This document shows positions 2,924 to 4,385 of a DNA stretch of 64,000 nt, in pieces. Source of the DNA: Actinoplanes sichuanensis (GTDB lineage Bacteria > Actinomycetota > Actinomycetes > Mycobacteriales > Micromonosporaceae); NCBI RefSeq assembly GCF_033097365.1, contig NZ_AP028461.1, positions 5,394,001 through 5,458,000 on the forward strand. Reading direction: 5' to 3'. Position 1 is the first letter of the stretch. Each line of letters opens with the position of its first letter. The notes beneath the pieces were generated by a model, which saw only the letters and a program-made list of their open reading frames with translations, searched no databases and was not told the DNA's origin. A program made the position numbers and the translations under genes.

Positions 2924-2952
2924 TTGTCGCGGCCGGGCGGTCGCACTAGTGT
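2924..2952 (+). promoter_or_regulatory. Promoter of the leader-peptide/tRNA operon
   Basis: A TTGTCG -35 element (2924-2929) is separated by exactly 17 nt from a TAGTGT -10 element (2947-2952), close to the actinobacterial housekeeping consensus TTGACn/TAnnnT. Transcription would start near 2959 and give a leader of about 35 nt before the small ORF. It lies between the divergent aldo/keto reductase and the leader ORF. The promoter is inferred from motifs only. Confidence 0.65.
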
Positions 2953-2994
2953 CTCTTTCAACGAAGTGAGCCGCACCGATGGAGGAGGGTCCCG

Positions 2995-3051
2995 ATGTAC
3001 TGCTGGCAGCAGCCTTGTCACTACCCCGGACCCATCGGGAGGCGCAGCTAG
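2995..3051 (+). CDS. 18-residue leader peptide rich in Tyr, Cys, Trp and Gln, upstream of a tRNA array
   Basis: ATG at 2995, stop TAG 3049-3051; the product reads MYCWQQPCHYPGPIGRRS. A very strong Shine-Dalgarno, GGAGGAGGG at 2981-2989, sits five bases before the ATG. Seven of the nine residues following Met are Tyr (TAC x2), Cys (TGC, TGT), Trp (TGG) or Gln (CAG x2). The four tRNA genes starting 60 nt downstream are tRNA-Trp(CCA), tRNA-Gln(CTG), tRNA-Tyr(GTA) and tRNA-Cys(GCA), which read exactly these codons. The final codons form one arm of an RNA stem that competes with a terminator. This is the architecture of a transcription-attenuation leader (as in trp or his operons). The peptide itself probably has no function. 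I know of no described homologue. Confidence 0.75.
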   Translation: MYCWQQPCHYPGPIGRRS

Positions 3052-3078
3052 CGCCCGGCTTCCACGCCGCCTCCCGGT
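3034..3078 (+). promoter_or_regulatory. Antiterminator pairing of the tRNA-operon attenuator
   Basis: CGGGAGGCG at 3036-3044 (the last sense codons of the leader ORF) is the perfect reverse complement of CGCCTCCCG at 3068-3076, and adding A3034-T3078 and T3035.G3077 gives 11 pairs. The downstream arm is the 5' arm of the terminator, so the two structures exclude each other. A ribosome stalled on codons 2-6 would leave 3034-3044 free to form the antiterminator. A ribosome reaching the stop at 3049-3051 would cover it and let the terminator form. A third, smaller hairpin (GCGC 3042-3045 with GCGC 3051-3054) also competes. Confidence 0.65.
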
Positions 3079-3104
3079 CACGGGACGGCGGCTTTCTTCG
3101 TTTC
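3067..3104 (+). terminator. Intrinsic terminator between leader ORF and tRNA array (attenuator)
   Basis: CCGCCTCCCG (3067-3076), a GTCA loop, then CGGGACGGCGG (3081-3091) form ten base pairs with one bulged C, followed by the T-rich tail CTTTCTTCGTTTC (3092-3104). It stands seven bases before the first tRNA, so it would stop transcription before the array unless disrupted by the alternative pairing. Confidence 0.75.
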
Positions 3105-3110
3105 ACACTT

Positions 3111-3184
3111 AGGGGTGTGGCGCAATTCGGTAGCGCAGCGGCCTCCAAATCCGAAGGTTGCAGGTTCGAATCCTGTCACCCCTG
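3111..3184 (+). tRNA. tRNA-Trp (CCA)
   Basis: A full cloverleaf can be drawn: acceptor AGGGGTG/CACCCCT, D arm GCGC/GCGC, anticodon loop CTCCAAA (anticodon CCA at 3145-3147), T loop TTCGAAT, and discriminator G3184. A1-U72 and G73 are the usual bacterial TrpRS identity elements. The anticodon stem is unusual: its outer pair is G3138.A3154 and its inner pair is C3142.T3150, both mismatches, with three good pairs between. CCA is not encoded. It is the first of four closely spaced tRNAs. Confidence 0.9.
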
Positions 3185-3206
3185 CTTTCGCATTGTCCGG
3201 AACCAT

Positions 3207-3279
3207 TCTCTCGTAGTCCAACTGGTAGTGACGCCCGGCTCTGGACCGGGAGATCCAGGTTCGAATCCTGGCGAGAGAG
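3207..3279 (+). tRNA. tRNA-Gln (CTG)
   Basis: The acceptor TCTCTCG/CGAGAGA pairs perfectly, the anticodon stem CCCGG/CCGGG is perfect with loop CTCTGGA (anticodon CTG at 3241-3243), the T loop is TTCGAAT, and the discriminator is G. The first pair is U1-A72, which is characteristic of tRNA-Gln. It starts 22 nt after tRNA-Trp. CCA is not encoded. Confidence 0.93.
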
Positions 3280-3293
3280 CTGCACCATCACAC

Positions 3294-3374
3294 GCGGGAG
3301 CGCCGACGTTGGAGAGTCGGGGCCGGCTGTAAACCGGTTGCTTCGCTGAGCGGGTTCGAATCCCGCCTCCCGCA
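3294..3374 (+). tRNA. tRNA-Tyr (GTA)
   Basis: The acceptor GCGGGAG/CTCCCGC is perfect, with anticodon stem GCCGG/CCGGT around CTGTAAA (anticodon GTA), a long class II variable arm as expected for bacterial tRNA-Tyr, T loop TTCGAAT and discriminator A. It starts 14 nt after tRNA-Gln. Confidence 0.93.
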
Positions 3375-3384
3375 CGCGTTTCCC

Positions 3385-3465
3385 GGCCTCGGTGGGTCCC
3401 CGGTGGGGCCGCCCGTCTGCAAAACGGGTCCTTCGGGCGCTCCGGTTCGACTCCGGCCCTGGCCT
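3385..3465 (+). tRNA. tRNA-Cys (GCA), non-canonical
   Basis: The anticodon stem CCCGT/ACGGG is perfect around CTGCAAA (anticodon GCA at 3419-3421), the T loop is TTCGACT, and the discriminator is U (T3465), the key CysRS identity base. Two features are odd. The acceptor GGCCTCG/CCTGGCC has T.T and C.C oppositions at pairs 5 and 6. The variable region is 12 nt long and contains CC-TTCG-GG, a small UUCG-capped arm, whereas tRNA-Cys normally has a 4-5 nt variable loop. It could be an accessory or divergent tRNA. CCA is not encoded. Confidence 0.8.
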
Positions 3466-3474
3466 CGGCGGTCA

Positions 3475-3510
3475 GCCGTCGTGCCGTCCGGCACCGGACG
3501 GCACGACGGC
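3475..3510. terminator. Perfect 16-bp hairpin after the tRNA array
   Basis: A 16-nt arm (3475-3490) is perfectly complementary to 3495-3510 around a GCAC loop. It lies between the end of the tRNA array and the stop of the convergent membrane-protein gene, so it probably ends transcription from both sides. There is no clear T tract. Confidence 0.75.
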
Positions 3511-3518
3511 GACCGGAT

Positions 3519-4385
3519 TCACTTCATGATCGATTTGGTACGGGGTGTGACCGGCGCCGCCACGATGCACAGGACGCTGCGGTCGTCGTTCCAACCGGCC
3601 GCGTTCTCCGGGTACAGGTAGTAGATCTCCAGGTCCTCGTTCTCCGGGGTGTCGTACGGCTCGTACGCCGTACCGCATCGCTCGTCGCTCTCTTCTTCAA
3701 CCGCTTTCTCGCCGGGGTAGGCGCCGGCCGGGAACCGGAAGACGTGATAGACCTCGGCCTTGTGCGGCTTGTCGCACGGCACGACAGGCATGTCGTAGAC
3801 GGCGGACGACTCGTCGAGGCTGCTGATGCAGTCGCCCGGCTTGAGTTCGGTGGTCTCGACGGCCTCGATCCCGGCGGCCCTGTTCCGCATCTCGTCGAAG
3901 ATGTATCCGGTGATCCCGATGATGCTGATCACCAGGGTGATGCTGGAGATGACGAGCGCGGCGACGGCGAGCCCGAACCCCTTCTGCGGCCGCCGCCGGA
4001 TCTGCACCAGCGCCGAGATGCCGAGCACGAAGCCGAGAATCGTGCCGAGGCCGAGCCCGCCGCAGATGCTGGCCACCAGCGCGCCGATCGCGAGCCCGTT
4101 GGGCCCGGACGCCACCATCGGCTGCGGGCCCTGAAACGTCCCCAACTGGGCCGGTCCGCCGAACGGCGACGGAGCACCGAAGGCCGCCGGGCTCCCATAG
4201 GGCCCCGGGCTCCCGTACGGCGGCGGACTACCGTACGGCGCCGCACCGGCGTAGGGGGCCGGGCCACCGTAAGGCATGTCACTGGCGGCGTAGGGCGGAT
4301 GGCCCCCGTAGGGCGGAGGCGCGGCGGCGTATGGCGAAGGCTCGGCCGGCGGCTGAGTGGGATCAGGGGGAACCTGGTTGTGCAC
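3519..4385 (-). CDS. Proline/tyrosine-rich DUF4190 membrane protein with septum-formation-type C-terminal domain
   Basis: GTG start at 4385, 288 residues. The first about 95 residues are a low-complexity cytoplasmic Pro/Gly/Tyr/Ala-rich segment with repeated PYG units. Two transmembrane helices follow (GLAIGALVASICGGLG and LAVAALVISSITLVISIIG), typical of DUF4190. The outside domain (about residues 180-280) has LKPGDCI, PVVPCDKPHKAEVY and RCGTAY, the Cys-bearing pattern of actinobacterial septum-formation (Septum_form) domains. It is likely anchored with the C-terminus outside. The exact role is unknown and a link to cell envelope or division is by family only. It stands alone, with the ROK gene 77 nt upstream in the same direction. 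Confidence 0.85.
   Translation of the reverse strand: MHNQVPPDPTQPPAEPSPYAAAPPPYGGHPPYAASDMPYGGPAPYAGAAPYGSPPPYGSPGPYGSPAAFGAPSPFGGPAQLGTFQGPQPMVASGPNGLAIGALVASICGGLGLGTILGFVLGISALVQIRRRPQKGFGLAVAALVISSITLVISIIGITGYIFDEMRNRAAGIEAVETTELKPGDCISSLDESSAVYDMPVVPCDKPHKAEVYHVFRFPAGAYPGEKAVEEESDERCGTAYEPYDTPENEDLEIYYLYPENAAGWNDDRSVLCIVAAPVTPRTKSIMK

Follow-up and report, generated by a model that had tools for sequence, protein, structure and literature searches.

In the actinobacterium Actinoplanes sichuanensis, a short leader open reading frame (ORF) and a predicted terminator precede four tRNA genes, and the codons of the leader correspond to the tRNAs that follow. The locus lies in the stretch of 64,000 nucleotides analysed here (the window), which is part of a single 12.1-Mb contig (G000:C1:5394001-5458000). 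Comparison with other operons of the same genome and with relatives reveals that this correspondence is far wider than the window locus, extending up to leaders with 20 amino acids before full arrays. We conclude that the element is very probably a ribosome-mediated transcription attenuator acting on an accessory tRNA operon.

Leader-tRNA operons of A. sichuanensis

The window locus and its flanks comprise the following features.

2924-2952, + strand: promoter-like pair TTGTCG-17-TAGTGT (TTGTCG 2924-2929, 17-nt spacer, TAGTGT 2947-2952), read from the sequence
2981-2988, + strand: Shine-Dalgarno (SD) sequence GGAGGAGG, 6 nt ahead of the ATG, read from the sequence
2995-3051, + strand: leader ORF MYCWQQPCHYPGPIGRRS, 18 codons, TAG stop, read from the sequence
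3037-3051, + strand: conserved leader end GGGAGGCGCAGCTAG, the antiterminator strand with the stop codon at a fixed position (model R1 match 3037-3106)
3066-3103, + strand: predicted intrinsic terminator, arms 3066-3076 and 3081-3092, T-rich tail 3093-3103
3111-3185, + strand: tRNA-Trp (cca), ARAGORN; Rfam 61.3 bits
3207-3280, + strand: tRNA-Gln (ctg), ARAGORN; Rfam 58.2 bits
3294-3375, + strand: tRNA-Tyr (gta), ARAGORN; Rfam 38.9 bits in the genome scan
3386-3466, + strand: tRNA-Cys (gca), ARAGORN only
1776-2894, - strand: ORF flanking the locus upstream of the promoter-like hexamers, which we take to be aldo/keto-reductase-like
3519-4385, - strand: ORF flanking the locus beyond tRNA-Cys

An earlier note on this DNA had described the same layout of promoter-like pair, SD sequence, 18-codon ORF, terminator and Trp-Gln-Tyr-Cys genes, and its coordinates proved right when the sequence was re-read and scanned with ARAGORN. 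It had also claimed that the leader holds all four amino acids of the array; these are Y2 C3 W4 Q5 Q6 C8 Y10 of MYCWQQPCHYPGPIGRRS, and simple wobble rules allow the four array tRNAs to read the codons concerned (TAC TGC TGG CAG CAG TGT TAC). The terminator has a bulged C3086 and a GTCA loop, and 3067-3104 folded alone reaches -19.4 kcal/mol (z -3.69), a value that none of 200 shuffles equalled. The alternative pairing of 3034-3044 with 3068-3078, likewise pointed out before, is present in the sequence and comprises 11 bp including one G-U. With four tRNAs in 356 bp, the array has the number and density of genes that mark tRNA array units. With the Rfam tRNA model at the gathering score, the window scan matched Trp and Gln only and the genome scan added Tyr; the matches are strong for Trp and Gln and weak for Tyr, and tRNA-Cys was not matched.

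The genome contains four leader-tRNA operons with different leaders and no anticodon in common, jointly covering 16 of the 20 isotypes. In the second operon (G000:C1, about 3.997 Mb), the leader MYRSESTYRSESSPPFGRRI holds the codons GAG, ACG and TCG and precedes tRNA-Glu(ctc), -Thr(cgt) and -Ser(cga). The third (6.871 Mb) has the leader MSATMKAMPSLPARRLSRLLGRWRS ahead of Arg, Leu, Leu, Ala, Ser, Met, Pro, Lys and Met, and its leader core, defined throughout as the leader with the start codon and the last five codons removed, holds all seven isotypes listed and one additional residue type (T). The fourth (1.333 Mb), which scores under the thresholds of both models described below, has the leader MNAINEDIRRRRR with all four isotypes of its Asp, Ile, Glu, Asn array and one additional residue type (A), Arg tail aside. 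By eye, a pair of the form TTGYSS-N17/18-TASYGT comparable to that of the window precedes the Glu-Thr-Ser and Asp-Ile-Glu-Asn leaders as well as those of A. philippinensis and A. xinjiangensis, while no clear pair was seen upstream of the Arg operon.

The earlier note had called the four tRNAs a backup set, and in the sense of being extra they are. In the stretches fetched, ARAGORN found 61 tRNAs that are not part of the first three operons. Once the seven located in the fourth operon and in a fifth tRNA cluster are set aside, 54 remain that include every array isotype, so that all four window isotypes have other copies in the genome, as is expected of a tRNA array unit that is extra to the housekeeping set. 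Because the tRNAs of the first three operons are, in addition, only 55-86% identical to same-isotype copies elsewhere (85% for the window tRNA-Trp and the sole other tRNA-Trp found), the arrays are both extra and divergent.

Match between leader codons and array contents

To follow the locus among relatives, two models covering the last five leader codons and the terminator were used. Model R1, built from six sequences, gave 41 matches in 36 of the 67 genomes of the genus (E<=1e-3). We took 37 of these loci together with the window, leaving out two at contig ends or cut, one tandem upstream leader and the window's own match (=L001). At least one downstream tRNA gene is present in 36 of the 37 matches fetched; one of these 36, L104, has no SD-led leader and is probably a chance match. 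Model R2, built from 43 sequences and applied at E<=1e-4, matched 175 of the family's 354 genomes, spread over 22 of 44 genera and including 55 genomes of Actinoplanes as counted from the individual rows; among the part of these matches that was inspected, one or more tRNA genes start within 450 nt in 55 of 59 fetched. The largest array in a relative has up to 36 tRNAs within about 6 kb (L129). Across the 298 genomes of the order, the leader-tRNA layout is shared by four that belong to one other family; R2 matches in two further families (L201, L204, L205) were rejected as unrelated terminators in 3-kb loci without tRNAs. In the class (296 genomes) R2 found none outside the family at E<=1e-4, with a family-built model that had also failed to detect the window genome's fourth operon.

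Because the models span only the last five codons and the terminator, and leaders were picked by stop position and SD sequence, the sensor codons were not selected for. The first set comprised 34 of 38 loci; L097 (no array), L104 (no SD leader), L090 (single distant tRNA) and L070 (short broken array) were left out, and the small-array result below holds with the latter two restored. In these 34 loci the fraction of array isotypes found in the leader core was 0.980, compared with 0.643 when leaders were swapped between loci (standard deviation (sd) 0.030, maximum 0.793; 0 of 20,000 swaps as high). All 16 loci with arrays of up to eight tRNAs are fully covered by their leaders, as in MMHHSTIAALLMTALARGRWRR before Leu, Ala, Met; MSSSVVQESEQQLESGRGD before Glu, Gln, Ser, Val, Glu, Val; MYRTYCRPDRWCG before Tyr, Cys; and MFRQATIGCIQQSGSPTGGRWRI before Gly, Gln, Ile, Arg, Cys. 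A Trp codon is present in the leaders of 15/17 arrays with tRNA-Trp and 0/17 without it, Lys in 12/12 with the tRNA and 2/22 without, and Cys in 16/16 and 4/18; the contrasts are weaker for Met (8/11 vs 6/23), Thr (13/13 vs 13/21) and Arg (13/13 vs 15/21). We rejected the explanation that a single leader merely happens to be rich in W, Q, Y and C: the second operon's leader matches other tRNAs and the permutation tests over relatives exclude chance. The codon-array match is beyond chance.

A second set comprised 40 of 60 loci, without L123, L134, L154 and L157 (no tRNA), L160 (leader elsewhere than assumed) and 15 others that had no SD sequence before the chosen ATG. The 20 loci of the same genus in this set gave 0.956 against 0.677 with leaders swapped (0 of 10,000). 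When 16 of the loci left out were re-examined, 14 proved to have an SD-led GTG start, one an ATG start (L160) and one neither (L126). In 14 of the 15 SD-led loci the leader, counted with its first and last codons, holds every detected isotype, and L151 lacks Asp; the leaders of L124, L144, L145, L147 and L158 hold many residues beyond their small arrays. Leader and array sets are identical in L172 (16 isotypes) and in two GTG-start loci, L136 (19, both without Phe) and L140 (20).

The match depends on the reading frame. In 77 loci (36 and 40 loci together with the fourth operon, the leader of which was picked by eye as an SD-led ORF ending before the terminator), coverage was 0.954 in frame compared with 0.571 and 0.570 in the +1 and +2 frames. 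It also holds among 46 representatives of leader clusters at 40% identity (0.942 vs 0.657 swapped, maximum 0.781, 0 of 20,000), making relatedness unlikely as an explanation, although no explicit tree was used. The same clusters bear on the idea that the ORF product is a small protein with a function of its own, carried along with tRNA arrays. The start, the SD sequence and a C-terminal end such as GRRS or GRWR do recur in many loci, as such a protein would predict; however, beyond the last codons the leaders fall into these 46 clusters with a composition that follows the array, and the DNA of the last codons forms the antiterminator, so that we regard a functional protein as the least probable explanation of all.

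To ask whether the match reaches beyond amino acids, we compared anticodons and leader codons in 36 of the 38 loci using simple wobble rules and a usage table from 26 window ORFs. A cognate leader codon is present for 300 of 327 array anticodons, compared with 280 (sd 4.2, maximum 294 in 1,000) when synonymous codons were resampled with the peptides kept and with 180 (maximum 219 in 2,000) for swapped leaders; the poorest cases are Ala(cgc) with 6/11 and Val(cac) with 3/8. The rule thus operates at the codon level, beyond the amino-acid level, and the regulatory codons correspond to the operon product as they do in attenuators. The contents of an array are predictable from its leader peptide. 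By eye, there was no obvious correspondence between the order of the array and that of the codons. As a separate observation, leader cores in these 36 loci are shifted to rarer AT-ending codons (GC content at third codon positions (GC3) 0.78 vs 0.91), with TGT making up 19 of 29 Cys codons and TAT 18 of 27 Tyr codons, as if selected for sensitivity.

Leader and array also gain and lose amino acids together. The corresponding operons of A. philippinensis (leader MRRWQYPYLVLTGRRS) and A. xinjiangensis (MQRWQYQQTVATGRRS) contain Trp, Gln and Tyr alone: downstream of Tyr no tRNA-Cys was detected, and Cys is absent from both leaders. L079 and L083 differ in Thr in leader and array alike. The earlier note had proposed a conservation check in relatives, and its outcome is favourable: most of the relatives examined retain the ORF, its stop position and the alternative pairing, and the codons follow the array.

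The same rule appears on plasmids of another lineage. We sampled ten actinobacterial plasmid arrays, picked from 25 listed of 227 records, and six of them, all from Micrococcales, follow it, their leaders having been picked by eye as SD-led ORFs. Arthrobacter caoxuetaonis NZ_CP099467 has 34 tRNAs of all isotypes except Cys and a leader with all amino acids except Cys, while Arthrobacter sp. NZ_CP104273 has 37 tRNAs of 20 isotypes and a leader with all 20; the two plasmids form a gain/loss pair for Cys. Paenarthrobacter NZ_CP053545 and Curtobacterium NZ_CP126255 combine 20 isotypes with 20 amino acids in the leader, and all 20 are in the leaders of Curtobacterium NZ_CP126274 (18 isotypes detected, not F and V) and C. 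pusillum CP018784 (19 detected, not F). By chance, all 20 would occur in 0.2-1% of random peptides of 43-52 residues, on an assumed composition. The leaders are related within two groups (the two Arthrobacter with Paenarthrobacter, and the three Curtobacterium), and these six leader RNAs showed no link to Actinoplanes by the family models or BLAST.

Several results limit the rule. In the 20 second-set loci of other genera, with long arrays, coverage was weaker (0.901 vs 0.824 swapped, 206 of 10,000 as high), the fraction of leader residues represented in the array being 0.463 vs 0.419 (5 of 10,000). Met is missing from the leader though present in the array in eight of the 40 second-set loci, and small arrays can have leaders far richer than the tRNAs detected (for example L070, L090, L122, L131, L132, L138, L152 and L175). 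Four of the ten plasmid arrays, those of M. intracellulare, a Mycolicibacterium, Tsukamurella and Pseudarthrobacter pACHL01, have no such leader, and the fifth cluster of the window genome (G000:C1:2543594-2543825, L262; 2.544 Mb), Gln(ttg)-Val-Val, has no matching one. The number of distinct residues is a weak measure for big arrays: for 15 arrays with at least 12 isotypes it averages 16.6 against 15.4 expected and is striking in some only. As to the fifth cluster itself, its anticodons are absent from the other four operons, yet no matching leader precedes it.

Other loci depart from the simple layout. L080 and L081, of the same genus, have two complete leaders and two terminators in tandem before one array, with differing peptides (MWWQASS.../MYRRHAET... 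and MTSWRNL.../MNRRHAVT...), possibly forming two gates in series. In another genus, L122, L123, L138 and L148 have the same kind of end motif and terminator followed by no tRNA or only a Met (or Leu and Met) tRNA; the leaders of L122 and L123 are near-identical (MMRPA...) and those of L138 and L148 different, and these loci represent either decayed arrays, undetected arrays or operons with another output.

Protein genes occur within the arrays. An HNH-like gene of about 147 aa lies in gaps of the long arrays of L071, L080, L129, L133, L136, L139, L142, L147, L155 and L160; the L142 protein was scanned as HNH_5 and the others look alike by eye. The L140 array contains a PD-(D/E)XK endonuclease gene. 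RNA ligase genes are annotated inside two Curtobacterium plasmid arrays (L223:235-2340 and L224), the scanned one of L223 (pS16) being PF09414 and its neighbour a HAD_SAK_2 RNA-repair domain protein, and HAD genes are annotated in an Arthrobacter and the Paenarthrobacter array. A phage origin was considered and rejected: a first pattern scan of viral_contigs gave three matches, all without tRNAs, and a further scan gave six, with one real leader and array (L267). This contig, IMGVR_UViG_2758568729_000001 (150 kb), is filed as viral and possibly a mobile element; its 20-amino-acid leader is the same peptide as that of L139. Upstream of the array of mycobacteriophage Specks there is only a 17-codon GTG ORF without most of the array's isotypes.

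Pairing and folding of the proposed switch

Our working model for the switch is as follows. RNA polymerase would start upstream and a ribosome would translate the leader ORF. With all listed tRNAs present and charged, the ribosome would reach the stop codon and cover the leader's GGGAGGCGC end, which would leave the 5' arm of the terminator free, so that the terminator would fold and transcription would stop before the tRNAs. If any one cognate aminoacyl-tRNA were short, the ribosome would stall upstream and expose the leader end, which could pair with the 5' arm as it emerges, ahead of synthesis of the 3' arm, and polymerase would read into the tRNA genes. Because a stall at any listed codon would open the tRNA genes, the leader would act as an OR-gate inventory of the operon's own tRNAs.

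The anatomy of the loci fits this model. In most of them an SD-led short ORF precedes the terminator, in the window between it and the promoter-like pair, and by prediction a terminator precedes the first structural gene in the window and in 91 loci. In 87 of the 91 loci a stop codon falls at nt 13-15 of the conserved end of the leader (a position partly built into the models), and the stop is 8-25 nt ahead of the terminator. The leader end pairs with the 5' arm of its own terminator at a mean of -17.4 kcal/mol and with the arms of other loci at -16.6, an advantage that one of 20,000 permutations equalled, and the 12-nt leader end reaches -17.0 compared with -11.9 when its bases are shuffled. 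The GGGAGG and CGGTGG subfamilies differ in the register of this pairing. Because the leader end can pair with the 5' arm and is covered by a ribosome positioned at the stop codon, stalling should antiterminate.

When folding was modelled with the 3' arm unmade, the antiterminator had 7.7 pairs in the ribosome-free transcript, 0.0 when the ribosome occupied the stop codon and 7.7 after an early stall, and in 72 of 76 loci the stall exceeded the stop by more than 2 pairs. At equilibrium with the full terminator, terminator pairs averaged 9.2 in the free transcript, 12.0 with the ribosome at the stop and 9.5 with a stall (76 loci); the stop exceeded the stall by more than 2 pairs in 32 loci and the reverse occurred in none. 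The predicted sign is thus consistent, with stalling turning the operon on. For the window, the short model gave 8.7 antiterminator pairs free, 0.0 at the stop and a mean of 4.3 when stalled. In a longer model, with an assumed nominal start at 2960 and an assumed footprint of 18 nt upstream and 13 nt downstream, stalls at codons 1-2 gave the antiterminator (8.5 pairs), and the terminator formed best with the ribosome at S18 or the stop (5.9-7.2 pairs compared with 0.5-4.1 elsewhere).

Against this stand several results. At equilibrium, stop and stall are within 2 pairs in 44 of the 76 loci, the window included, and the full window terminator is nearly unchanged by the ribosome (11.0, 11.0 and 10.5 pairs). 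In the longer window model, codons 3-10 gave 0-1 antiterminator pairs, except for 4.6 at codon 7, and the ribosome-free transcript only 2.4, because structures of the Shine-Dalgarno region and a GGCGC/GCGCC hairpin compete. Only 55 of the 91 leader ends are in the best 5% of their base shuffles. A generic promoter and terminator scanner reported neither at the window locus, probably because its rules are strict consensus. Because the antiterminator often loses at equilibrium, the switch would have to be kinetic. Altogether, the folding models agree with the switch in part, those of the window being mixed; the attenuation proposed in the earlier note is largely supported with these reservations, and the alternative stem for which it had suggested a covariation test is kept in most of the relatives examined, with modest covariation.

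The antiterminator formed by the ribosome-free transcript (mean 7.7 pairs) implies that a general block of translation should also induce, and whiB7-type upstream ORFs are general sensors of translation failure. The leaders could accordingly belong to that class, their amino-acid content being incidental or set by RNA structure. We consider this very unlikely because the frame control and the permutation tests rule out incidental content and because structural constraints predict no array-specific codon set.

Function and comparison with known systems

The natural signal may be tRNA loss, low charging or plain homeostasis. More tRNA would cure a shortage of tRNA and not one of amino acids, and we therefore favour a reserve against tRNA loss, for example by anticodon-nuclease attack. 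Specifically, the peptide-coded checklist of an array would fire when an anticodon nuclease or similar agent removes any listed tRNA, and divergent, perhaps cleavage-resistant, copies from the array would replace the lost or damaged housekeeping tRNA; checklist and contents would co-evolve codon by codon, with arrays split into sub-operons with split checklists. To this scenario as a whole we give an even chance. The codon-level match, the divergent extra copies and the plasmid location all argue for a reserve against tRNA loss, as do the HNH genes in arrays and the RNA ligase annotated in two Curtobacterium arrays.

The main rival is homeostatic feedback, in which the attenuator would be a constant thermostat for tRNA supply, set for example by rare-codon demand or fast growth, rather than an emergency response to tRNA damage. 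The codon-to-tRNA match tells what is sensed and not why, and the rarer AT-ending leader codons (GC3 0.78 vs 0.91) could sharpen sensitivity to small changes. However, the array tRNAs are divergent in the three operons compared and redundant with other copies, and an RNA ligase annotated in two Curtobacterium arrays, one scanned together with its HAD_SAK_2 neighbour, fits damage better; we regard a thermostat as possible but not probable. Rather unlikely is a sensor of amino-acid starvation as in the trp and his attenuators, with the tRNAs as mere passengers. The physical mechanism would be blind to the difference between uncharged and absent tRNA, and leader peptides do precede synthetase genes in Streptomyces lividans, as reported in the sections available of one study (PMC8079986). 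Yet extra uncharged tRNA would give no relief from starvation, the codons match particular isoacceptors (300 vs 280 expected), and leaders with all 20 amino acids would respond to any starvation. Control by such a leader would give accessory tRNA arrays, long a puzzle, a role and an inducer that can be tested, and the leader could serve as it stands to report the loss of a tRNA of choice.

The trp, his, leu, ilv and thr operons are controlled by ribosome-mediated transcription attenuators, and the tRNA operons resemble them in having a short leader ORF, regulatory codons, a predicted terminator and, as proposed, a competing antiterminator and induction by stalling. They differ in that their output is the tRNAs themselves and in that up to all 20 amino acids are listed; trp also has a 1:2 protector hairpin, for which no separate counterpart is established here. 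T-box riboswitches respond to uncharged tRNA by a choice between terminator and antiterminator, a likeness to the control proposed here, but do so by direct RNA-tRNA binding. An Rfam scan of the window at the gathering score gave tRNA matches only, and a T-box was rejected on this basis. In E. coli, pheST has a leader-peptide attenuator before synthetase genes. Like such leaders, which monitor a single charged tRNA and regulate the charging machinery, the tRNA operons would sense charged tRNA; the synthetase leaders involve one amino acid and a synthetase as output, whereas here many tRNAs are listed and the output is a tRNA array. Further synthetase leaders of the one-amino-acid kind are alaL, leuL, trpL and thrL of S. 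lividans, as far as the portions available describe them (PMC8079986).

According to the parts available of two papers, tRNA array units of mycobacteria, phages and plasmids are dense accessory clusters with HNH genes (PMC5966550, PMC12803027), and one proposes a putative anti-defence system (PMC12803027). The present operons share the density and the HNH genes inside; two mycobacterial and one Tsukamurella plasmid arrays have no matching leader, unlike the Actinoplanes operons. In the available main texts of PMC5966550 and PMC12803027 the words promoter, leader and attenuat- are absent. An RNA repair operon controlled by RtcR is induced by damaged tRNAs (PMC7790460, in the sections available); the likeness lies in tRNA damage being sensed and a remedy induced, as proposed here, and the difference in that a protein binds tRNA fragments and the remedy is repair, not replacement tRNAs. 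The earlier note knew of no attenuator whose output is the sensed tRNAs, and the mainly open-access literature searched, in the portions available (including PMC5966550, PMC12803027, PMC8297930 and PMC8079986), contains no description of attenuation of a tRNA operon.

The physics of the proposed control, leader-peptide attenuation, is known, and what is new is the tRNA output together with a checklist of up to 20 inputs that follows the array. Bacterial tRNA genes are usually seen as controlled by promoter strength and growth rate; in the operons described here, control appears to rest on checking codon by codon for the operon's own products, some 43 codons accommodating up to 20 inputs.

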